A DNA stretch of 64,000 nucleotides from positions 1-64,000 of the forward strand of contig NZ_FUYN01000005.1 of the NCBI RefSeq assembly GCF_900168025.1, read 5' to 3'. Positions 1,408-42,198 of this stretch are shown here, in pieces. The notes beneath the pieces are model-generated. The model saw only the letters and a list, made by a program, of their open reading frames with translations, was not told the origin of the DNA and ran no database searches. Origin of the DNA: Acetoanaerobium noterae. Its GTDB lineage: Bacteria > Bacillota > Clostridia > Peptostreptococcales > Filifactoraceae. Each line of letters starts with the position of its first letter. The stretch's first letter is position 1. The translations under genes were made by a program, and so were the position numbers.

Positions 1408-3126
1408 ATGGGATTTAGAAAAAAATTATTGATAGGATTTTCTGCTATTATGATTATCATGGTGTTTTTGGGAGTGTTTGGCCTTTATGAAATGAAATCA
1501 ATTAATAACAATGTAAAGGAAATTTATAATGTCACGTTAAAAGGAGTATACTATTTGAAAGATGCTCATTATAATATTATCAAAGCTCAGAGAGTAGAAA
1601 AGAATGTTCTTTTATCAAAAACAAAAGATGAAAAAATGGAACACACTATGCACTTGGATGAAACATATACAGATGGAATTATCAAAAATTTAAATTTATA
1701 TATGGCTTTGAGTGCAGGTGAAGGTAACGAGGCCGAGATTGAAGCATTGATTAGTAAAGTTAATGATGTAAAAAAAATCCAGAGTGAAGTAATTGATAAA
1801 AGTATGGCAGGTAGTGAGGATGAGGCACTAGCACTTTCTCAAAACAGTGCCAAGGCATTTGATAAAATAGACACATTGATTACAGAACTATCACAGCATG
1901 AATTGGCAGAAGCCGATGATACTTTTATAAACAGTAATAGTACATATAATAAATCATTTTTGATCTTTATTGGAATTATATTTTTTGCTTTAATTGCCGG
2001 TGCTTTCATAATGAGTAGAATGGCCGCGTCGGTAATCAAGCCTTTAAAAAGATCAGTACGATTCGCCGATGAATTATCAAAAGGGAACTTGAATAGCAGA
2101 ATTGATATTCGAATGGCTAATGATGAAATTGGCATGCTTGTGAATTCCCTTAATAATACAGGTGAGAAACTAAGTGAAATTGTATCTGAAATCAAGAAAT
2201 CTTCAATGGGTTTGGAAGAAAGTACAGAACAATTAAATATGGCAACAGAAGAATCGAATCAGGTTATGGATGAAATAGGAGTTTCGGTAGGTGCCATTAC
2301 AGATAATATTGAGCAAGTGGTTTCTTCGATAGAACATATCAGTAGTAATTTAAAAAATATAGTTATTAATGCTGATGAAGTATCAAAATTAACCCAGGAA
2401 GCTAATACAGAATCTAATACTCTTATTGAGTCAGCAAAAAAAGGTAGAAGTTCAGTCGATATATTAATACATAATACAAAAGATATCGAGAAATCGACAA
2501 ATGAGGTACATGTAACAATAGACGATCTACAAGTACTTTCAGGTAAAATTGATAATATAATAACTGTGATTAAGGATATTGCCGCACAGACCAATCTTTT
2601 AGCCCTTAATGCATCAATAGAAGCAGCTAGAGCAGGTGAACATGGTAGAGGTTTTATGGTTGTGGCTGAAGAAGTGAGAAAATTGGCGGATGGCAGTGCG
2701 GTTGCAGCAGCCGACATTGAGAATACAATAATCGAAGTACAAAATAAAACAAACATAGCAGTACAGAGCATAACAATTACAGAGAAAAAAGTAATTGAAG
2801 GAAATCAGGCTGCATTAGTGGCCGATACTAATTTAACTATTATTCTTGATAGTATTGCTCAATTGGCTGAAAAGATAAGGAAGATTTCAGTACAATCAGA
2901 AGAACAGGCAAATTCCGCTGAAAATATTTCAGAACATATGGATCAGGCCGTGATTAATTCAAAGGATGTAGCACAGTCCGCACATAATATAAATGGTAAA
3001 ATTGGCGAGCAAATAGCTGCAATTCAAGAGATAAGTGCTGTATCTAATCCTCTTCTGATGATGACAGAAAATCTTAATAAGATGATTCAGTACTTTCAAA
3101 CAACTGAGATTGAGGCAGAAAAATAG
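1408..3126 (+). CDS. Methyl-accepting chemotaxis protein
   Basis: A 572-aa membrane chemoreceptor that relays a signal to CheA/CheW. The start is the ATG at 1408, placed after AGGGAGGA (1393-1400); a more upstream in-frame ATG has no ribosome site. Visible in order: TM1 (about residues 6-28), a four-helix-bundle ligand domain, TM2 (about 180-200), a HAMP linker beginning at VIKPLKR, and a long methyl-accepting coiled coil. The conserved signalling tip reads [20 protein letters not shown], followed by [11 protein letters not shown]. The ligand is unknown. It is followed by two c-di-GMP enzymes, suggesting a sensory cluster for motility or attachment within the accessory region. Confidence 0.93.
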
Positions 3127-3165
3127 TATATATAAAATTATTAGTAAAATATTTTATGATACAAC

Positions 3166-3194
3166 AAGGTGGGCACTTAACAGTCGCCCACTTT
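3166..3194 (+). terminator. Hairpin after the chemoreceptor gene
   Basis: AAGGTGGGC (3166-3174) pairs with GCCCACTTT (3186-3194) around an 11-base loop. The T-run is weak. Its position in the gap supports starting the next gene downstream at 3224 rather than at an upstream in-frame ATG inside the chemoreceptor gene. Confidence 0.5.
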
Positions 3195-3223
3195 ACTATA
3201 TATTTAAGGGATTGAGGTATGTA

Positions 3224-4498
3224 ATGAAAAAGTATTCATTAGTAAAAACATTTATACTATACAGTCTTATTACTTTTATTTTAATTGGCGCCGTTTTATC
3301 GTTTGTCATATCGAATCATATTAAAAATGATTATCATCAAAATTTATATGATGCCGCTCAAATTGCCGTGGACAGTATAAATGAAAGTATTTTAGTAGAA
3401 TCTGATTTTGATAATAATATTGATAACGCTAAGCAAATGCTTCTGGAAGAAAATATCAATAGATCATTGAGCCTGTATATGCCCCAATCATATACCATGT
3501 TTAATAATAAGAAGAAAATAGTATTAACAAACAGACAGTCCTCAGAGACAATAACTGCAAATGATCTTAGTGGTGTTGATATGATACTGGAAAGTAAGGT
3601 AACATATTATATCTCCAAAGCTTATTCTATTAATGATGTAATTAATACAAGAGTATTCAACTTATATGTTCCGATAAAATATAAAGAGAACATTGCAGGA
3701 GTACTAATGCTTCAAATCCCGGAAGTGGTTATTAAATCACATGTGGATATGCTTTTAAAAGAAATAATTTTGACTATGTCTGGTGGATTGCTGGTACTCT
3801 TTTTGTTGTTAATAAGAATCTTGTATTCAGCATCAAAGACATTAAGGAATCAAAACAATGAACTAATAAATCAAAAAGCAGAGATCGAAACAGCTTATAA
3901 ACAGCTTTCAGACTCATATAGGAACACTATATCAGCATTATCAAATGCAGTCGACGCCAGAGACGCATATACCGCTGGGCATTCGGAAAGAGTAACAAAA
4001 ATATCTCTTCTTATAGGTGAAAATCTTGGCTTGTCAGCGGATGAGATGAAAAAACTGGAATACGCCGCTTTATTCCACGATATAGGTAAGATAGGAATTC
4101 CTGATCATATTCTGTTAAAGAACAGTAAACTTACGGACGAAGAGTTCGCTATAATTCAAAAGCATCCTGAAATGGGGGTAAATATACTTAAATCTATAGA
4201 GTTTCTAGATGATATTCTGCCCATAATCATGCATCACCACGAAAGATATATCGGCAACGGATATCCGGATAAGCTTAGTGGAGAAAGAATTCCGCTGTGT
4301 TCTAAGATAATATCAGTGGCAGATACATATGATGCGATGACATCTAATAGACCTTATCGAAAAAAACTCCAACATGAGGTAGCAGTCGATGAAATATTGC
4401 GTAATAAACAAGTACAGTTTGATGCTAGAATCGTTGACGCTTTTTTAGCAATAGAAAAATTATTGAATGATGATAACAAACGAGGAAAGCGAATATGA
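3224..4498 (+). CDS. Membrane HD-GYP cyclic-di-GMP phosphodiesterase
   Basis: A 424-aa protein predicted to hydrolyse cyclic di-GMP. The N-terminus is a transmembrane helix (from KKYSLVKTFILYSLITFILI), then an extracytoplasmic sensor region, a second transmembrane helix (about 185-205) and a short coiled linker. The HD-GYP domain follows with its signature residues: HSERV, the HDIGKIGIPD motif, HHHER and GNGYPDKLSG. All metal-ligand motifs are present, so the enzyme is probably active. The ATG at 3224 follows GAGG and lies beyond the terminator-like hairpin. Its stop overlaps the start of the diguanylate cyclase gene (ATGA), so the two opposing enzymes are translationally coupled. Confidence 0.92.
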   Translation: MKKYSLVKTFILYSLITFILIGAVLSFVISNHIKNDYHQNLYDAAQIAVDSINESILVESDFDNNIDNAKQMLLEENINRSLSLYMPQSYTMFNNKKKIVLTNRQSSETITANDLSGVDMILESKVTYYISKAYSINDVINTRVFNLYVPIKYKENIAGVLMLQIPEVVIKSHVDMLLKEIILTMSGGLLVLFLLLIRILYSASKTLRNQNNELINQKAEIETAYKQLSDSYRNTISALSNAVDARDAYTAGHSERVTKISLLIGENLGLSADEMKKLEYAALFHDIGKIGIPDHILLKNSKLTDEEFAIIQKHPEMGVNILKSIEFLDDILPIIMHHHERYIGNGYPDKLSGERIPLCSKIISVADTYDAMTSNRPYRKKLQHEVAVDEILRNKQVQFDARIVDAFLAIEKLLNDDNKRGKRI

Positions 4499-32914: not shown

Positions 32915-33307
32915 ATGAACGTAGCATTAATTGCACATGACCATAAAAAAGATATTTTAATTAATTTTGTTCTTGCGTATTCAGAAATATTTAAAAAACA
33001 TAATTTATTTGCGACAGGAACAACAGGACGATTAATAGAAAAAATGACAGGGTTAAGTGTTCATAAGTTTCTATCAGGTCCTCTAGGTGGAGATCAGCAA
33101 ATAGGTGCTAAAATTGCTGAGAACAATATGGATTTGATTATTTTTTTAAGAGACCCTCTTACAGCACAGCCACATGAACCTGATGTACAAGCTCTACTTA
33201 GATTATGTGATGTTCACGCAATACCACTTGCTACAAACCTTGCTTCTGCTGAATTATTCATAAATGGTTTAAAAAGAGGAGACTTAAATTACAGAGAAAT
33301 TGATTAA
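32915..33307 (+). CDS. mgsA: Methylglyoxal synthase
   Basis: A 130-aa enzyme converting dihydroxyacetone phosphate to methylglyoxal and phosphate. Motifs are [55 protein letters not shown] (with catalytic Asp) and [16 protein letters not shown] 32915 after TTAGGAG is chosen; a longer in-frame start lies inside rodA. Last gene before the lysine operon. Confidence 0.95.
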
Positions 33308-33334: not shown

Positions 33335-33363
33335 TTGACAATTATATAACTAAGGATTATAAT
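33335..33363 (+). promoter_or_regulatory. Consensus promoter of the lysine fermentation operon
   Basis: TTGACA (33335-33340), exactly 17 bases, then TATAAT (33358-33363): a perfect sigma-A promoter. Transcription should start near 33370, about 16 bases before the riboswitch P1 helix. With such a strong promoter, control must come mainly from the leader. Confidence 0.9.
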
Positions 33364-33385
33364 CAAAATGAAAATTATAAAAATT

Positions 33386-33556
33386 CGTAAATAGAGGTGC
33401 AACAAGAAGGTAATACAATTATGCTAAGAGTAAGAACACTCGATGAATTGTACTAATGTCTTTGTTGCCGAAGAGACTTATTCGTTCTTGGATATTTCTT
33501 TGGTGGTAATGTTCAGCACTTACCATTGCCATGTTAATCATGGAGCGCTATTTACG
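33386..33556 (+). promoter_or_regulatory. Lysine riboswitch (L box), predicted ON type
   Basis: A lysine aptamer upstream of the lysine-degrading genes. P1 is formed by CGTAAATAG (33386-33394) and CTATTTACG (33548-33556), nine perfect pairs. The conserved AGAGGTGC follows P1. P2 pairs GCAACAA (33399-33405) with TTGTTGC (33462-33468), next to the conserved GCCGAAG (33467-33473). P4 is TGGTAA/TTACCA, P5 is CCATG/CATGG (33529-33543), and the closing GGAGCGCTAT is the family's 3' signature. The 3' strand of P1 is also part of the terminator's 5' arm, so ligand-stabilised P1 prevents termination. Confidence 0.93.
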
Positions 33557-33589
33557 TCATGCATGTCATGACGTAAATAGCGCTTTTTT
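33544..33589 (+). terminator. Riboswitch-controlled terminator
   Basis: An 18-bp perfect stem: 33544-33561 pairs with 33567-33584 around a 5-base loop (CATGT), followed directly by a T-run to 33589. Bases 33548-33556 are shared with riboswitch helix P1, making the two structures mutually exclusive. It lies 32 bases before the first gene, kal. Confidence 0.93.
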
Positions 33590-33620
33590 AGTTTTATTTA
33601 TTTTTAAGGAGGCAATCAAA

Positions 33621-34001
33621 ATGAAATCTGTACTTAAAATTAGAATGAGTGCTCATGACGCTCATTATGGCGGTGGTCTTGTAGATGGGGCTAGAATGCT
33701 TCAACTATTCGGAGACGTGGCAACGGAACTACTTATAATGAATGATGGAGACGAAGGACTTTTTAAAGCTTATGACATGGTTGAGTTTATGGCTCCAGTT
33801 TTTGCTGGCGACTACATAGAAGTTGAAGGAAGCATCACAGAGCAAGGTAATACATCAAGAAAAATGGTTTTTGAAGCAAGAAAAGTGATTGTTCCAAGAA
33901 CAGATATAAATGATTCGGCATGCGATGTACTTGAAACCCCGATTGTAGTATGTCGTGCTAGTGGTACTTGTGTAGTTCCTAAGGATAAACAAAGAAAGTA
34001 G
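33621..34001 (+). CDS. kal: 3-aminobutyryl-CoA ammonia-lyase
   Basis: A 126-aa hot-dog-fold enzyme that removes ammonia from L-3-aminobutyryl-CoA to give crotonyl-CoA in lysine fermentation. The segment [21 protein letters not shown] is typical (given here from residue 10 on), as is [18 protein letters not shown] 33621 follows AAGGAGG (33606-33612). A longer in-frame start at 33531 lies inside the riboswitch and is rejected. First gene of the operon. Confidence 0.93.
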
Positions 34002-34009
34002 GGATAAGA

Positions 34010-34831
34010 ATGGAAAAGTTAATTATAACAGCTGCAATTTGTGGAGCAGAGGTTACAAAAGAACACAACCCAAATGTTCCTTATACAGTGGAGGAAATAG
34101 TAAGAGAAGCAAAATCAGCTTATGATGCTGGGGCAAGCGTTATCCACCTTCATGTAAGAGAGGACGATGGTACTCCAACTCAATCAAAAGAAAGATTTAA
34201 AATGTGTATTGATGCGATAAAAGAAGCCTGTCCAGATGCAATAATTCAACCTTCAACTGGTGGAGCTGTAGGAATGACAGATGAAGAAAGACTTCAACCA
34301 GTATTTCTTAAACCAGAGATGGCATCATTAGACTGCGGAACATGTAACTTTGGCGGAGATGAAATCTTTGTAAACACAGAGAATATGATTATAAATTTCT
34401 CGAAATATATGATTGAAAATGGTGTAAAACCAGAATGTGAAGTTTTCGATAAGAGCATGATTGATATGGCAATTAGGTTAGCTAAAAAAGGTCATATCCA
34501 AACTCCAATGCACTTTAATTTCGTTATGGGTGTAAATGGAGGAATAAGTGCAACACCAAGAGATTTAGTATTTTTAATTGGAAGCATTCCAAGTGAATCA
34601 TCATTTACGGTATCAGCAATGGGAAGAAATCAATTCCCAATGGCAGCGATGGCCATTATTACAGGAGGCCATGTAAGAGTTGGATTTGAAGACAACGTTT
34701 ACATAGAAAAAGGTGTTCCAGCTAAAAGCAACGGTGAGTTAGTTGAAAAAGTCGTAAGATTAGCTAAAGAATTTGGAAGACCAGTAGCTACTCCAGCAGA
34801 GGCAAGAGAAATACTAGGTATTTCTAAATAA
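34010..34831 (+). CDS. kce: 3-keto-5-aminohexanoate cleavage enzyme
   Basis: A 273-aa BKACE-family (DUF849) TIM-barrel enzyme. It converts 5-amino-3-oxohexanoate plus acetyl-CoA to 3-aminobutyryl-CoA and acetoacetate. Seen: ICGAEVTKEHNPNVPYT, VIHLHVREDDGTPTQ with the two zinc-binding histidines, the later histidines in HFNFVMG and GGHVRVGFEDN. It sits eight bases after kal. Confidence 0.95.
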   Translation: MEKLIITAAICGAEVTKEHNPNVPYTVEEIVREAKSAYDAGASVIHLHVREDDGTPTQSKERFKMCIDAIKEACPDAIIQPSTGGAVGMTDEERLQPVFLKPEMASLDCGTCNFGGDEIFVNTENMIINFSKYMIENGVKPECEVFDKSMIDMAIRLAKKGHIQTPMHFNFVMGVNGGISATPRDLVFLIGSIPSESSFTVSAMGRNQFPMAAMAIITGGHVRVGFEDNVYIEKGVPAKSNGELVEKVVRLAKEFGRPVATPAEAREILGISK

Positions 34832-34911
34832 TTTTAAATATAAGTAAAAAAGCATTTAAATAACATAGTTAATAATAAAATTAATTTATATAAAAATTGG
34901 AGGGATTTGTA

Positions 34912-35946
34912 ATGAAAGGCTGTAAATATGGAACTCATCGTGTAATTGAACCAAAAGGATCACTACCACAACCTGCACTTAAAATTTCTAATGATATGAA
35001 CATCTTCAGTAATGAGATACTAATAGATGTACAAGCATTGAATGTTGACTCAGCAAGCTTTACTCAAATTGAAGAAGAAGCTGGTCATGATACAAAGAAA
35101 ATTGCTGCAAAAATCTTAGAAATTGTTGGAGAAAGAGGTAAAATGCAAAATCCTGTTACTGGTTCAGGAGGAATGCTGATTGGAACTATTGAAAAAATCG
35201 GTGAAGATCTAGAAGGCAAAATTGATTTAAAAGTAGGAGATAAAATAGCTACATTAGTATCACTTTCACTAACTCCACTTCAAATAGACGAAATAATCGA
35301 TATTAAGCCAGACATAGATAGAGTAGAAATTAAAGGTAAAGCTATATTATTTGAAAGCGGTATATATGCAAAGCTACCAACTGACATGAGCGAAACTTTA
35401 GCTCTTGCAGCACTAGATGTAGCTGGAGCACCTGCTCAAACAGCAAAGCTTGTTAAACCTGGAGATTCAGTTCTAATTCTTGGGGCAGCTGGTAAATCTG
35501 GAATGATGTGCTGCTATGAAGCTAAGAAAAGAGTAGGCCCAACAGGAAGAGTAGTTGGTCTTGTAAGAAATGAAAAAAGTAAAGCAAAACTATTGGAAAT
35601 GGGTATAGTTGATGATGTAATAATAGCAAGTGCTCAGCTTCCAGTTGAAGTTTTAGAAACAAGCTTAGCAGCAAATAACGGGAACGAATATGATATATCA
35701 ATCAACTGCGTAAACGTAGAAAATACAGAAATGTCTTCAATACTTCCAATCAGAAATGGCGGAACAGTATACTTCTTCTCAATGGCAACAAGCTTTACAA
35801 AAGCAGCTTTAGGTGCTGAGGGAGTTGGAAAAGACGTTGATATGATAATTGGAAATGGATACACAAAAGGACATGCTGAGATAACTCTTCAAATACTTAG
35901 AGAATCAGAAATAGTTAGAACTACATTTGAAAAGATGTATCTATAA
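34912..35946 (+). CDS. kdd: L-erythro-3,5-diaminohexanoate dehydrogenase
   Basis: A 344-aa NAD-dependent oxidoreductase giving 5-amino-3-oxohexanoate and ammonia. It starts MKGCKYGTHRVIEPKGSLPQ and has an alcohol-dehydrogenase-like Rossmann core (VLILGAAGKSGMMCCYEAKK). The canonical zinc ligands of ADHs are not evident, as expected for this family. ATG 34912 follows GGAGGG. Middle step of the pathway, between the aminomutases and Kce. Confidence 0.94.
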   Translation: MKGCKYGTHRVIEPKGSLPQPALKISNDMNIFSNEILIDVQALNVDSASFTQIEEEAGHDTKKIAAKILEIVGERGKMQNPVTGSGGMLIGTIEKIGEDLEGKIDLKVGDKIATLVSLSLTPLQIDEIIDIKPDIDRVEIKGKAILFESGIYAKLPTDMSETLALAALDVAGAPAQTAKLVKPGDSVLILGAAGKSGMMCCYEAKKRVGPTGRVVGLVRNEKSKAKLLEMGIVDDVIIASAQLPVEVLETSLAANNGNEYDISINCVNVENTEMSSILPIRNGGTVYFFSMATSFTKAALGAEGVGKDVDMIIGNGYTKGHAEITLQILRESEIVRTTFEKMYL

Positions 35947-36006: not shown

Positions 36007-37251
36007 ATGAGTTTAAAGGATAAGTTTTTTTCACACGTTAGCCAAGAAGATTGGAACGATTGGAAATGGCAAGTAAGAAATCGTATTGAAACTGTTGAAG
36101 AACTTAAAAAATATATTCCACTTACTCCAGAAGAAGAGGAAGGGGTAAAAAGATGTCTTGATACATTAAGAATGGCTATTACTCCATACTATCTATCTCT
36201 AATTGATGTAGAAAATCCAAATGACCCTGTAAGAAAGCAAGCTGTACCTCTTTCTTTAGAGCTACATAGAGCAGCTTCTGATCAAGAAGACCCACTTCAT
36301 GAAGATGGAGATTCTCCAGTTCCAGGACTTACACATAGATATCCTGACAGAGTTCTTCTTTTAATGACTGATCAATGTTCAATGTACTGCAGACACTGTA
36401 CTAGAAGAAGATTCGCTGGTCAAACAGATTCTGCTGTTGATACTAAGCAAATAGATGCTGCGATTGAATATATCAAAAATACTCCACAAGTAAGAGATGT
36501 TCTACTTTCAGGAGGAGATGCTCTATTAATCTCAGATGAAAAGCTTGAGTACACAATCAAAAGACTTCGCGAAATACCACACGTTGAGGTTATTCGTATA
36601 GGCTCAAGAGTACCAGTTGTAATGCCACAAAGAATTACACCAGAACTAGTGTCTATGCTTAAAAAGTATCATCCAGTATGGTTAAATACACACTTCAACC
36701 ATCCTAATGAAATTACTGAAGAGTCTAAAAGAGCATGTGAGTTACTTGCTGATGCAGGTATTCCTCTTGGGAATCAAAGTGTGCTTCTTGCAGGTGTAAA
36801 TGATTGCATGCACGTTATGAAAAAACTAGTAAATGATTTAGTTAAAATAAGAGTAAGACCTTACTATATTTATCAATGTGACCTTTCAGTTGGAATTGAG
36901 CACTTTAGAACTCCAGTTGCAAAGGGAATAGAAATAATTGAAGGCTTAAGAGGACATACTTCAGGATACTGCGTTCCTACATTTGTTGTGGATGCACCTG
37001 GTGGAGGAGGAAAAACTCCAGTTATGCCAAACTATGTTATTTCACAAAATCACAATAAAGTTATTTTACGTAACTTTGAAGGTGTAATTACAACTTACGA
37101 TGAGCCTGATCATTATACTTTCCACTGTGACTGCGATGTATGTACAGGAAAAACAAATGTTCATAAGGTTGGAGTAGCTGGACTTCTTAATGGAGAGACA
37201 GCAACACTTGAACCAGAGGGTTTGGAAAGAAAACAAAGAGGACATCACTAA
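36007..37251 (+). CDS. kamA: L-lysine 2,3-aminomutase
   Basis: A 414-aa radical SAM, PLP-dependent enzyme that turns L-lysine into L-beta-lysine, the first step of the pathway. The [4Fe-4S]-SAM motif is Cys124-x3-Cys128-x2-Cys131 (CSMYCRHC). The PLP lysine is Lys336 in APGGGGKTPVMPNY. The C-terminal cysteines (HCDCDVCTG) match the zinc site of the clostridial enzyme. AAGGAGG precedes the start. Only three bases separate it from kamB. Confidence 0.97.
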   Translation: MSLKDKFFSHVSQEDWNDWKWQVRNRIETVEELKKYIPLTPEEEEGVKRCLDTLRMAITPYYLSLIDVENPNDPVRKQAVPLSLELHRAASDQEDPLHEDGDSPVPGLTHRYPDRVLLLMTDQCSMYCRHCTRRRFAGQTDSAVDTKQIDAAIEYIKNTPQVRDVLLSGGDALLISDEKLEYTIKRLREIPHVEVIRIGSRVPVVMPQRITPELVSMLKKYHPVWLNTHFNHPNEITEESKRACELLADAGIPLGNQSVLLAGVNDCMHVMKKLVNDLVKIRVRPYYIYQCDLSVGIEHFRTPVAKGIEIIEGLRGHTSGYCVPTFVVDAPGGGGKTPVMPNYVISQNHNKVILRNFEGVITTYDEPDHYTFHCDCDVCTGKTNVHKVGVAGLLNGETATLEPEGLERKQRGHH

Positions 37252-37254
37252 AAA

Positions 37255-38277
37255 ATGTCAAAAGTAATAAGTAACTCTCGCTCAACAGCAATAATTGGAA
37301 TGGATAAAAACGTGGGCAAGACTACTGTATTAAATTATATTCTTAGTAAGACTAAGGGCAGTGATGTCCTTGGTCTTACTTCTATTGGAAGAGATGGAGA
37401 ATCTGTAGATAGAGTTACTCACACGCCTAAGCCTAAGATATATGTAAAAAAGGACACTATACTTGCGACAGCTAAGATATGTATGTTTCAGTCTGATATT
37501 ACTAAAGAAATTCTTGAATCTACAGGTATAAATACTCCAATGGGAAATATTGTTTTTATTCGTTCTAAAAGTGATGGATATATAGATTTAGCAGGACCAT
37601 CTACTACTTCACAAATGAAAGAAATCGTAAGTAAGCTAAAAGAATACAAAGCAGATCAAATTTATGTCGATGGAGCTATTTCTAGAATGACTCAATGTTC
37701 ACCTGCAATAGTTGATTCTGCTGTACTTTGTACTGGAGCTGTACTTGGAAATAATATTAAAACTGTAGTGGAAAAAACTGCTCATGTTGTAAAAATGCTC
37801 AGCTTACCAAGACATGAATTAAGTGATGATTTAGGAAAATTAGAATTATTACCAAGTCACAGGGCAGTAATTATAGCTAATGACCAGTCCAAAGTATTCC
37901 TTGAAGCGCAGACATCTACTGAGGTTGCTGAAAAAATAGATAGCTTTCTTGATGATAAAGTTGAAACAATATATATTAAAGGAGTACTATCTGAAGATCT
38001 TTCTAAAAAGCTACTTTCAAAAAAACATAAAAATAAGGCCATAGACGTTGTTGTAGAGGATGGTACTAAAATTTTTATAGGAGTAGATGTTTATAATCAG
38101 ATGAAGAGGCACTCAATCAATATATATGTTCAGTACCATATAAATTTAAAAGAATTATATTATAATCCCACATCTCCTACTGGAGCTAGTTTGGATGATG
38201 AAGATTTAAGAAAAGCATTGCAAGAAAGTACGGGACTTAATGCAATTAATGTATTTGGGAGAGATAGTTATGTATAA
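37255..38277 (+). CDS. kamB: KamB, P-loop protein of the lysine fermentation operon
   Basis: A 340-aa soluble protein with a Walker A motif at the N-terminus (GMDKNVGKTTVLNYIL). No catalytic family is recognised beyond a P-loop NTPase-like start. It is conserved between kamA and kamC in lysine fermenters. Because the 5,6-aminomutase is a B12 enzyme prone to inactivation, KamB with the MutS-like KamC may be an ATP-driven reactivation or assembly factor; that is inference from position. It overlaps kamC by eight bases. Confidence 0.8.
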   Translation: MSKVISNSRSTAIIGMDKNVGKTTVLNYILSKTKGSDVLGLTSIGRDGESVDRVTHTPKPKIYVKKDTILATAKICMFQSDITKEILESTGINTPMGNIVFIRSKSDGYIDLAGPSTTSQMKEIVSKLKEYKADQIYVDGAISRMTQCSPAIVDSAVLCTGAVLGNNIKTVVEKTAHVVKMLSLPRHELSDDLGKLELLPSHRAVIIANDQSKVFLEAQTSTEVAEKIDSFLDDKVETIYIKGVLSEDLSKKLLSKKHKNKAIDVVVEDGTKIFIGVDVYNQMKRHSINIYVQYHINLKELYYNPTSPTGASLDDEDLRKALQESTGLNAINVFGRDSYV

Positions 38278-39730
38278 GCTGAAAAAAGAAGAAATAAGAG
38301 ATATAGGCTTGAATTTTGTCTTTTCTCAAATGAAAATACTAACTCCTATGGGTAGAAATAGAATTAAAAATCTTGAAATATTTGGAAAAGATAACAAGGA
38401 AAAACTATTAGTTGAATTTAGTAATATATCGTATTGTTTAGATAATATAATAAATCGTAAAGAAGTTTACACACAGTTTGCTTCAATTTTAAGCAAAATT
38501 AAAGATATTTCTGGAACTATAACCAATTTAAAAAAACAACGAACTTTAGACATTGTTGAACTTTATGAAGTTAAATTATTTTCTTACTATGTAAATTCTT
38601 TAATTAAAGCCGTCCATACCAATAATATTTCAATTCAAAATTTTGAACTTGAAAGCCTTAATGATGTATATGCTCTTTTAGATCCTGAAGGTATGAAATT
38701 GCCAACATTTATGATTTATGACGATTATTGTGAAAATTTAAGTAAAATTAGAAAAGATAAAAAAAGACTTGAGCAGGAAATCAGAAATGAAACAAATAGT
38801 GACTTAATTGAAAAAACCTTATCTAAACGACGAGATTTAGTTTATCAAGAAGAGATACGAGAGCAAGAAATAAGAAAAGAGCTTACAAAGAAGCTAGGAC
38901 ACTTTGCTTATATTATAGAAAAAAATATTAATTTAGTTACCTATTTAGATTTGCTTATCGCAAAAGCAAAGCTTGCTAAGGATTATAAGTGTAACTGTCC
39001 TAAAATAACGGATACATATGAAATTCATTTGGATAATATGAATAATCCGTATTTTAATAGTATTTTAAAGGAAAAAGGAAGTAGCTATGTTCCTGTTGGT
39101 TTAAAGCTTCAAGAAGGAGCGACTGTGATAACTGGAGCAAACATGGGAGGTAAGTCTTTAACACTTAAAACCTTGCTTCTAAATGTTACTTTAGCTCAAC
39201 TAGGTTTTTTTGTTTTTGCGGATTATGTAAGTCTTCCGGTACTTGACTATATTTATATGATAATGGATGATTTGCAGTCTGTTAATAGAGGCTTAAGTAG
39301 TTTTGGTGCTGAAATTAAAGCTTTAGATGAAGCTATAGATTTGTCCCTTAGCGGGAGAGGTCTTATTGTCATGGATGAGCTTGCAAGAGGAACAAATCCA
39401 CAAGAAGGAAAAGCTATTGTCAATGCAGTAGTGAGATTTTTAAATGATAAAGATACATTTTCCGTGATTAGTACTCACTATGACAGTATTGATTTAAAAG
39501 ATGTGGTTCAGTATAGAGTACGAGGATTAAAAAATATAGATTTTGATAAGTTATCAGTTAGTAGCATTAGTGAATCATCAAGTAATCATGAGCTACTTCA
39601 GCAACTTATGGATTATACTCTAGAAAAATGTGAAGATGAAGCAGTTCCCAAAGATGCTTTAAACATCTGTAAATTTTTGGGTCTTAATCAGGAACTTTAT
39701 TCTATTATAAAAAAGTATTATGAGGAGTGA
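38270..39730 (+). CDS. kamC: KamC, MutS-like ATPase
   Basis: A 486-aa protein related to the MutS core and ATPase domains without the mismatch-recognition domain. The ABC-type ATPase is clear: GANMGGKSLTLKTLL (Walker A), then RGLIVMDELARGTNPQEGKA (Walker B and Q/signature region) and STHYDSIDL. ATG 38270 inside the end of kamB follows GGGAGAG. The context argues for a role with the lysine 5,6-aminomutase encoded just downstream rather than in DNA repair. MutS-like genes also accompany ornithine 4,5-aminomutase in related bacteria. Confidence 0.85.
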   Translation: MYKLKKEEIRDIGLNFVFSQMKILTPMGRNRIKNLEIFGKDNKEKLLVEFSNISYCLDNIINRKEVYTQFASILSKIKDISGTITNLKKQRTLDIVELYEVKLFSYYVNSLIKAVHTNNISIQNFELESLNDVYALLDPEGMKLPTFMIYDDYCENLSKIRKDKKRLEQEIRNETNSDLIEKTLSKRRDLVYQEEIREQEIRKELTKKLGHFAYIIEKNINLVTYLDLLIAKAKLAKDYKCNCPKITDTYEIHLDNMNNPYFNSILKEKGSSYVPVGLKLQEGATVITGANMGGKSLTLKTLLLNVTLAQLGFFVFADYVSLPVLDYIYMIMDDLQSVNRGLSSFGAEIKALDEAIDLSLSGRGLIVMDELARGTNPQEGKAIVNAVVRFLNDKDTFSVISTHYDSIDLKDVVQYRVRGLKNIDFDKLSVSSISESSSNHELLQQLMDYTLEKCEDEAVPKDALNICKFLGLNQELYSIIKKYYEE

Positions 39731-39735
39731 TATCT

Positions 39736-41286
39736 GTGGAAAGTAAATTAAATTTGGATTTTAATCTTGTAGAAAAAGCAAGAGCAAAGGCAAAAGCAAT
39801 TGCAATTGATACACAGGAGTTTATTGAAAAACATACTACAGTTACAGTTGAACGAGCAGTTTGCCGTTTGCTTGGAATAGATGGAGTGGATACTGATGAG
39901 GTACCACTTCCTAATATAGTAGTAGATCATATAAAAGAAAACAATGGATTAAATCTTGGGGCAGCAATGTATATAGCAAATGCTGTACTAAATACTGGAA
40001 AGACACCTCAAGAAATAGCACAAGCAATATCAGCTGGAGAACTTGATTTAACAAAACTTCCAATGAAGGATTTATTTGAAGTTAAAACTAAAGCTCTTTC
40101 TATGGCAAAAGAAACTGTTGAGAAAATAAAAAATAACAGAAGTATAAGAGAATCACGTTTTGAAGAATATGGAGATAAATCAGGACCATTATTATATGTA
40201 ATTGTTGCAACTGGTAATATATATGAAGATATAACTCAAGCTGTTGCTGCTGCAAAGCAAGGAGCTGATGTTATAGCAGTTATAAGAACTACTGGACAAT
40301 CTCTGCTTGATTATGTTCCTTATGGAGCAACAACAGAAGGCTTTGGCGGGACTTATGCAACTCAAGAAAACTTTAGACTAATGAGAGAGGCTCTTGATAA
40401 GGTTGGAGCTGAGGTTGGAAAATACATTAGACTTTGTAATTACTGTTCTGGTTTATGTATGCCTGAAATTGCTGCTATGGGAGCAATTGAAAGACTAGAC
40501 GTAATGCTTAATGATGCATTATATGGCATATTATTTAGAGATATTAATATGCAAAGAACTATGATAGACCAAAATTTCTCAAGAATTATAAACGGATTTG
40601 CAGGAGTAATAATCAATACGGGAGAAGATAACTACTTAACAACAGCAGATGCTTTTGAAGAAGCTCATACAGTACTAGCTTCTCAGTTTATTAATGAGCA
40701 ATTTGCTTTACTAGCTGGGCTTCCAGAAGAACAAATGGGACTTGGGCATGCTTTTGAAATGGATCCTGAACTAAAAAATGGATTCCTTTACGAATTATCT
40801 CAAGCTCAAATGGCAAGAGAAATTTTCCCAAAAGCTCCTTTAAAATATATGCCTCCTACAAAATTTATGACAGGAAATATATTTAAAGGACATATTCAAG
40901 ATGCCTTATTTAATATGGTAACAATAATGACTAACCAGAGAATTCATCTTCTTGGAATGCTTACAGAGGCTCTTCATACACCATTTATGTCAGATAGAGC
41001 TCTTTCAATTGAAAATGCTCAATATATATTCAATAATATGGAATCTATATCTGAAGAAATTCAGTTTAAAGAAGATGGATTAATACAAAAAAGAGCTGGA
41101 TTTGTTTTAGAAAAAGCAAATGAACTGCTAGAGGAAATAGAGCAACTTGGCTTGTTTGATACATTAGAAAAAGGTATTTTTGGTGGAGTTAAGAGACCTA
41201 AAGACGGTGGAAAAGGTTTAAATGGGGTAGTTAGCAAGGATGAGAATTATTACAACCCATTTGTAGAATTGATGCTTAATAAGTAA
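39736..41286 (+). CDS. kamD: Lysine 5,6-aminomutase alpha subunit
   Basis: A 516-aa subunit carrying the PLP-binding TIM barrel of the adenosylcobalamin-dependent enzyme that moves the terminal amino group of beta-lysine (or D-lysine). Sequence landmarks are ESKLNLDFNLVEKARAKAKA at the start, GATTEGFGGTYATQENFRLM and RLCNYCSGLCMPEIAAMGA. GTG 39736 is preferred because GAGGAG lies eight bases upstream; another GTG at 39727 overlaps that site. Length and sequence match, from memory, the crystallised A. sticklandii protein. Confidence 0.96.
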   Translation: MESKLNLDFNLVEKARAKAKAIAIDTQEFIEKHTTVTVERAVCRLLGIDGVDTDEVPLPNIVVDHIKENNGLNLGAAMYIANAVLNTGKTPQEIAQAISAGELDLTKLPMKDLFEVKTKALSMAKETVEKIKNNRSIRESRFEEYGDKSGPLLYVIVATGNIYEDITQAVAAAKQGADVIAVIRTTGQSLLDYVPYGATTEGFGGTYATQENFRLMREALDKVGAEVGKYIRLCNYCSGLCMPEIAAMGAIERLDVMLNDALYGILFRDINMQRTMIDQNFSRIINGFAGVIINTGEDNYLTTADAFEEAHTVLASQFINEQFALLAGLPEEQMGLGHAFEMDPELKNGFLYELSQAQMAREIFPKAPLKYMPPTKFMTGNIFKGHIQDALFNMVTIMTNQRIHLLGMLTEALHTPFMSDRALSIENAQYIFNNMESISEEIQFKEDGLIQKRAGFVLEKANELLEEIEQLGLFDTLEKGIFGGVKRPKDGGKGLNGVVSKDENYYNPFVELMLNK

Positions 41287-41310: not shown

Positions 41311-42099
41311 ATGAGCTCAGGTTTATATTCTATGGAAAAAAAGGAATTCGATAAGGTTTTGGATTTAGAAAGAGTTAAGCCTTATGGAGATACTATGAAT
41401 GATGGAAAGGTGCAGATTAGCTTTACTTTACCATTAAAAAATAATGAACGTTCGGCAGAAGCGGCAAAGCAAGTTGCATTAAAGATGGGACTTGAGGAGC
41501 CAAGCGTAGTAATGCAACAGTCTTTAGATGAGGAGTTCACTTTCTTTGTGGTTTATGGAAATTTTGTTCAGTCTGTAAATTACAATGAAATCCATGTTGA
41601 AGCTGTAAACTCTGAAATACTATCTATGGAAGAAACAGATGAATATATAAAAGAAAACATAGGAAGAAAAATTGTTGTTGTAGGTGCAAGTACAGGAACA
41701 GATGCGCATACAGTAGGAATAGATGCGATAATGAATATGAAGGGCTACGCAGGACATTACGGGCTTGAAAGATATGAAATGATAGATGCATATAATCTAG
41801 GAAGCCAAGTTGCCAATGAAGACTTCATAAAGAAAGCAGTTGAACTTGAAGCCGATGTACTTTTGGTTTCACAAACAGTAACTCAAAAGAATGTACATAT
41901 TCAAAATATGACACATTTAATTGAACTATTAGAAGCAGAAGGACTTAGAGACAGATTTGTACTTCTTTGCGGAGGGCCTAGAATAAATAATGAAATAGCA
42001 AAGGAATTGGGTTATGATGCAGGTTTTGGACCTGGAAGATTTGCTGATGATGTAGCTACTTTTGCAGTAAAGACCTTAAATGATAGAATTAATAGCTAA
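41311..42099 (+). CDS. kamE: Lysine 5,6-aminomutase beta subunit
   Basis: A 262-aa cobalamin-binding subunit. The base-off/His-on B12 motif DxHxxG is DAHTVG with His133, and Lys144 in NMKGYAGHYG is the residue known to form the PLP aldimine from the B12 subunit in this enzyme. A Rossmann-like B12 domain follows (ADVLLVSQTVTQKN, LLCGGPRINNEIA). GGGAGG precedes the start. Last gene of the operon, before a terminator. Confidence 0.97.
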   Translation: MSSGLYSMEKKEFDKVLDLERVKPYGDTMNDGKVQISFTLPLKNNERSAEAAKQVALKMGLEEPSVVMQQSLDEEFTFFVVYGNFVQSVNYNEIHVEAVNSEILSMEETDEYIKENIGRKIVVVGASTGTDAHTVGIDAIMNMKGYAGHYGLERYEMIDAYNLGSQVANEDFIKKAVELEADVLLVSQTVTQKNVHIQNMTHLIELLEAEGLRDRFVLLCGGPRINNEIAKELGYDAGFGPGRFADDVATFAVKTLNDRINS

Positions 42100-42168: not shown

Positions 42169-42198
42169 TAGACAGTTTTTATAAAGTTAAGGTATAAT
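42169..42198 (+). promoter_or_regulatory. Promoter upstream of the radical SAM gene
   Basis: TAGACA (42169-42174), an 18-base spacer and TATAAT (42193-42198), about 45 bases before the start codon at 42244. Confidence 0.65.

Follow-up and report, generated by a model that had tools for sequence, protein, structure and literature searches.

The leader of the lysine-fermentation operon in the analyzed window, a stretch of 64,000 nucleotides of Acetoanaerobium noterae DNA, most probably acts as a transcriptional lysine ON riboswitch (at a probability of roughly 0.9), in which the P1 helix of the aptamer and an intrinsic terminator compete directly for one strand of the transcript. Lysine would accordingly be the inducer of kal-kce-kdd-kamABCDE, and hence of its own fermentation.

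The elements of this leader all lie on the forward strand. The promoter (33335..33363), with TTGACA at 33335 and TATAAT at 33358 separated by a spacer of 17, matches the consensus at 12 of 12 positions, as the preliminary description had claimed, and is the sole 12/12 site among 31 promoter-like hits between 32900 and 42400, a region for which shuffled sequences average 40.1 hits. The 5' strand of P1, CGTAAATAG (33386..33394), forms a perfect 9-bp helix with CTATTTACG (33548..33556), and the latter strand is at the same time a portion of the terminator 5' arm (33544..33561). This arm forms 18 perfect pairs with the 3' arm (33567..33584) around a loop at 33562-33566, with an energy of -27.8 kcal/mol, and is followed by a run of T's from 33584 to 33589. 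Within the 3' arm, CGTAAATAG occurs a second time, at 33572-33580. Both the double use of 33548-33556 and the perfect 18-bp terminator with its T-run had been described beforehand, and the pairings proved exact to the base. Among 2000 mononucleotide shuffles of 33335-33620, none produced a 9-mer followed at similar spacing by its reverse complement and then by the same 9-mer again.

Partition-function folding of growing transcripts, for which a start at 33370 was assumed, indicates that P1 forms early and is then displaced by the terminator as the transcript lengthens. At a transcript end of 33557, the probability of P1 is 1.00. At 33572 it is still 1.00, with the terminator at 0.99, and the terminator pairs present in the model at this length are taken for those of the tip, 33557-33561 with 33567-33571. 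P1 is down to 0.16 at 33578 and gone (0.00) at 33581, in agreement with the earlier claim that P1 and the full terminator exclude one another through their common strand. At a transcript end of 33584 with no ligand, the terminator state (-68.5) is favored over the P1 state (-54.1) by 14.4 kcal/mol. Lysine therefore could not be expected to win at equilibrium, and the switch would have to be kinetic.

A kinetic gate is suggested both by this far greater stability of the ligand-free terminator and by analogy with the pbuE adenine ON switch of Bacillus subtilis, in which a toehold hairpin starts strand exchange through P1 into the terminator and the ligand serves as the gate (PMC7707468). The strand-exchange mechanism proposed for the window is alike, whereas the aptamer and ligand of pbuE are unrelated and belong to a different family. 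In the window, the apical terminator segment outside P1 (33557..33561), which pairs with 33567-33571, is proposed by the same analogy as the toehold. As polymerase transcribes the aptamer, P1 would close, as in the computed folding; about 15 nt further on, the terminator tip would arise beside P1 and begin to peel off the shared strand. With no lysine, the exchange would run to completion, the 18-bp terminator would form at the T-run, and transcription would halt. With lysine bound, the aptamer core would keep P1 until polymerase had cleared the T-run, and kal-kce-kdd-kamABCDE would be transcribed. The lysine gate would thus consist of a delay of strand exchange during the passage of polymerase over the T-run.

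All eight genes that the preliminary description had placed downstream were recovered above curated NCBIfam equivalog cut-offs. They are kal, 3-aminobutyryl-CoA ammonia lyase (33621..34001; NF052388, 194.2 bits, cut-off 160); kce, 3-keto-5-aminohexanoate cleavage enzyme (34010..34831; NF052387, 455.5 bits, cut-off 382); kdd, L-erythro-3,5-diaminohexanoate dehydrogenase (34897..35946; NF052381, 278.4 bits, cut-off 200); kamA, lysine 2,3-aminomutase (36007..37251; TIGR03820, 645.2 bits, cut-off 525.4); kamB and kamC, the reactivase subunit (37255..38277; NF052386, 360.8 bits, cut-off 210) and the MutS-like reactivase ATPase (38240..39730; NF052383, 540.2 bits, cut-off 300) of lysine 5,6-aminomutase; and kamD and kamE, the alpha subunit (39727..41286; NF052384, 939.7 bits, cut-off 600) and beta subunit (41311..42099; above the curated cut-off of its equivalog) of the same enzyme, all on the forward strand. 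A promoter-like site matching at 11 of 12 positions follows kamE at 42169-42198 and suggests a new transcription unit there; kamE is the probable end of the operon. Upstream of the leader, a gene with an MGS domain, probably mgsA, ends at 33307. Upstream of the kal start, its reading frame stays open across the terminator as far as another ATG at 33531 (33531-34001), and kal may be 30 codons too long in automatic annotation.

Comparison with other lysine riboswitches suggests that this wiring follows gene function. A Kce scan of the genome collection gave 349 candidates, of which 335 were relatives, and the best 80 were taken as loci; RF00168 was found in 49 of these best 80, with 52 matches. 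Matches to RF00168 were also present in 10 of the 11 genomes of the window's family and in 101 of the 148 genomes sampled from its class. As a check on aptamer extraction, AGAGGNGC was found in 118 of the 138 aptamers from the whole-genome searches, and the remaining 20 carry close variants of it at the expected place. The site set, drawn from the Kce loci and from these genomes, comprised 190 sites including the window, locus L002 (the window itself) having been dropped. Lysine-fermentation genes lie downstream of 60 sites, at most 59 of which are distinct since L004 and L093 are the same in sequence, and the 130 'other' sites are those with no downstream tblastn match to the kal, kce, kdd, or kam queries within a locus reach of at most about 1500 bases, such that an operon lying farther away is missed. 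The genome G001, from the same genus as that of the window, is identical to A. pronyense L004 over 678 nt.

The best terminator of each site was computed twice, once with the P1 3' strand available and once with it masked. In this masking test, the terminators were solely P1-dependent at 28 of the 60 fermentation sites as against 3 of the 130 others (Fisher p 9.5e-14, a value that ignores the relatedness of sites). P1-dependent and independent terminators occurred together at 16/60 and 15/130 sites, respectively, bringing the sites with any P1-dependent terminator to 44/60 and 18/130. Conversely, independent terminators alone were found at 13/60 fermentation sites versus 106/130 others; no terminator was found at 2/60 and 5/130, and only a weak one at 1/60 and 1/130. 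The platform is not universal, as a P1-dependent terminator is missing from 16 of the 60 fermentation sites. Among the 15 'other' sites with both a P1-dependent hairpin and an independent terminator, the hairpin starts 26-51 nt before the aptamer end in 11, and these 11 are therefore taken for the aptamer's own helices; in L116, L136, L146, and L176, it starts 8-15 nt before the aptamer end and is not explained in this way. A first count, based on overlap, was dropped in favor of the masking test because long loose hairpins overlapped even in leaders with an ordinary separate terminator. P1-dependent terminators thus appear mostly with catabolism and separate terminators with the rest, and the ON logic first put forward for the window is supported by the apparent tie of the same wiring to lysine-fermentation genes across the 189 other sites.

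For the 44 loci that combine the direct arrangement with downstream fermentation genes, the P1 5' base, the shared base, and the terminator 3' base were tabulated. Among loci keeping both pairings, positions 1-4 of the shared strand are invariant, position 5 is T in 36 and C in 2, and position 6 is T in 23, G in 7, and A in 4. The later positions vary as well, with A 25 and G 2 at position 7; T 31, C 4, G 3, and A 1 at position 8; and G 22 and T 4 at position 9. Pairing counts are partly set by selection, the 44 loci having been chosen for such a terminator and P1 positions 1-6 lying within the Rfam model; P1 pairing at positions 7-9 is free of selection and is found at position 8 in 41 of the 44 loci, at position 7 in 27, and at position 9 in 26.

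The aptamer itself had been called complete, and a covariance-model scan agrees: RF00168 matches 33384..33558 over its full length (model 1-182 of 182) with 64.4 bits and an E-value of 1.6e-14, against a cut-off of 30 bits. This score is nonetheless low, with just 6 of the 52 Kce-locus matches scoring lower, and the aptamer deviates from the consensus, among other places, in the internal loop of P2, for which the consensus is a sarcin-ricin / kink-turn. For these reasons, its affinity for lysine is uncertain, and one might suppose that the aptamer is non-functional or has changed its ligand, leaving the terminator as a fixed attenuator for which lysine is not the signal. This is very unlikely, however, given that the core segments UAGAGGUGC, GCCGAA, and UGGAGCGCUA are retained in the RF00168 alignment, that the platform is present in 44 loci, and that genes for lysine degradation lie downstream. 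The loops of P2 and P3 kiss in lysine aptamers, and in the window the candidate segments, AAGAAC in the P2 loop (33432..33437) and GTTCTT in the P3 loop (33484..33489), are perfectly complementary in this single sequence, which likewise argues against a degenerate aptamer. As for the P2 internal loop, the kink-turn is described as absent from some variants (Barrick and Breaker 2007, PMC2258182). Elsewhere in the window, Rfam models match a selenocysteine tRNA (RF01852, 63096-63188, 72 bits) and a pemK RNA motif (RF02913, 11005-11083, 49.4 bits).

The usual arrangement for lysine riboswitches is an OFF switch through removal of an antiterminator. Were the window of this lysC type, lysine-bound P1 would remove the antiterminator and free the terminator, and lysine would repress the operon. 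Such a logic has a sequence correlate among the 'other' sites: of the 106 whose terminator is separate, 36 show pairing of the P1 strand with the terminator arm at z <= -2. In the window, however, P1 and the terminator use one strand and are hence mutually exclusive. In addition, a search of 33370-33620 for an antiterminator found for the terminator 5' arm no better partner than one at -5.9 kcal/mol besides the P1 5' strand (-12.1), and for the 3' arm no better other partner than one at -6.9 kcal/mol. These alternatives pair too poorly for any leader segment to resemble an antiterminator, so that the absence of a separate one, claimed at the outset, holds for this region. Repression by lysine of a pathway that consumes lysine would also make little sense, and OFF logic was rejected on the grounds of the common strand and the missing antiterminator partner; it is barely credible for this leader.

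A second lysine riboswitch match, the only other one in the genome, offers a direct comparison. It lies on the minus strand (G000:C1:376679-376837, 78.8 bits) ahead of dapA (TIGR00674, 361.7 bits, cut-off 206.15) and shares the aptamer family of the window riboswitch. Its terminator, at +43, does not need P1, unlike that of the window, which shares the P1 strand, and it is presumably an OFF switch.

Finally, a main action on translation or mRNA stability instead of termination, for which one could cite the five Fusobacteria-type kal leaders and the possible existence of other platforms, has a negligible likelihood here, as the window carries a strong intrinsic terminator and the AAGGAGG ahead of the kal ATG at 33621 lies outside both the P1 and terminator helices, 3' of the T-run. 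In those five leaders (L021, L036, L057, L079, and L081), the aptamer is present and no P1-dependent terminator passes the masking test; three of them have weak hairpins overlapping P1.

With direct competition between P1 and the terminator as the preferred reading of the window, its relatives display several elaborations. The 3 'other' sites with a solely P1-dependent terminator, L091, L094, and L095, belong to three genomes of a single genus within the window's family. They carry the direct arrangement ahead of a 391-aa thiolase (TIGR01930; 493.8, 489.7, and 490.1 bits, respectively, cut-off 240.55), after which L094 shows the start (67 residues) of an acyl-CoA-dehydrogenase-like protein. 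Each of the same three genomes has a separate riboswitch preceding kal (L096, L090, and L092). Judging from this gene order, lysine control may reach butyrate-forming genes by way of the thiolase switch.

Double lysine riboswitches that carry terminator stems have been described (PMC9481103). In L010 (Eubacterium ramulus; 2910-3916), L017 (2903-3914), and L019 (2959-3905), one aptamer lies ahead of kal and a second in the interval from kal to kce. Both aptamers of each locus have a P1-dependent terminator, and no promoter-like site in the gap before the second aptamer matches at more than 8 of 12 positions. Such tandem ON switches are proposed to act as two lysine checks in series in the three operons.

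Many Clostridium and Thermoanaerobacter leaders, and some from Lachnospiraceae, possess a second terminator. In L007, L030, L045, L060, L006, and others, it lies about 40-130 nt after the aptamer, and its 5' arm and the P1-invading strand are complementary. These complementarities raise the possibility of a relay, in which lysine would free the P1-invading strand to act as antiterminator of the second terminator; the evidence for it is mixed. From 29 fermentation and 120 other sites with a separate terminator, 3 and 14, respectively, were excluded for having spacers shorter than 12 nt, so that 26 and 106 remained; L192, one of the three excluded fermentation sites, had a strong P1:terminator-arm pairing (z -3.8), due to the arm having been taken too long. 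In favor of the relay, the spacer pairs with the terminator arm at z <= -2 in 12 of the 26 fermentation sites as against 3 of the 106 others, and P1 does so in none of the 26 as against 36 of the 106. In a matrix of ten hand-chosen loci, many of them related, cognate pairs average -11.3 kcal/mol and cross-lineage pairs -6.6 kcal/mol. Against it, when P1 was held in minimum-energy folds of 8 hand-chosen and often related leaders, the second terminator still formed in 7, and only L030 folded the antiterminator in its place. That the window represents the simplest form of a diversified lysine ON system, to which the two-step relay, the tandem switches, and the thiolase switch of its relatives would belong, is a tentative idea that we consider somewhat doubtful.

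The wiring of the window belongs to a known kind, since both terminator-burying lysine ON riboswitches and their placement ahead of kal and kce have been published. Some riboswitches for glycine, adenine, and lysine that have ON logic are described as burying parts of terminator stems (Barrick and Breaker 2007, PMC2258182, with Rodionov 2003 as the source on lysine). As summarized there, the lysine examples share with the window the aptamer family, the burial of part of the terminator stem by ligand, and the ON logic, and no difference in principle was found. Positive regulation has been reported for lysine riboswitches ahead of kal-kce in Clostridium sticklandii, kal in Fusobacterium nucleatum, and pspF3-kal-kce in two Thermoanaerobacter species (Mukherjee 2017, PMC5584792). 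The genes and the predicted positive regulation are the same as in the window; the word 'terminator' is absent from the main text of that paper, and the sharing of a strand by P1 and the terminator is shown and counted here. Among the loci of the present survey, Thermoanaerobacter wiegelii (L049) and Caldanaerobacter subterraneus (L037) have the direct arrangement. C. sticklandii is now placed in Acetoanaerobium, the genus of the window. The categories given in the accessible text of Sun 2013 name lysine biosynthesis and transport and include none for lysine degradation. Full-text literature searches brought up neither experiments on a lysine riboswitch of kal nor a description of the relay, and Rodionov 2003 or Serganov and Patel 2009 may hold an earlier account. 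The window is therefore a further clear example of wiring already described in the 2007 and 2017 papers, with no new mechanism, and the modest new leads are the variants in relatives rather than the window itself.

As an example, it combines a clean and minimal lysine ON switch with the complete kal-kam gene set, and is amenable to direct test. The leader provides a natural lysine-induced part for engineering and, if lysine induction holds true, would account for the way in which amino-acid-fermenting anaerobes can switch on lysine fermentation with no protein regulator dedicated to it.
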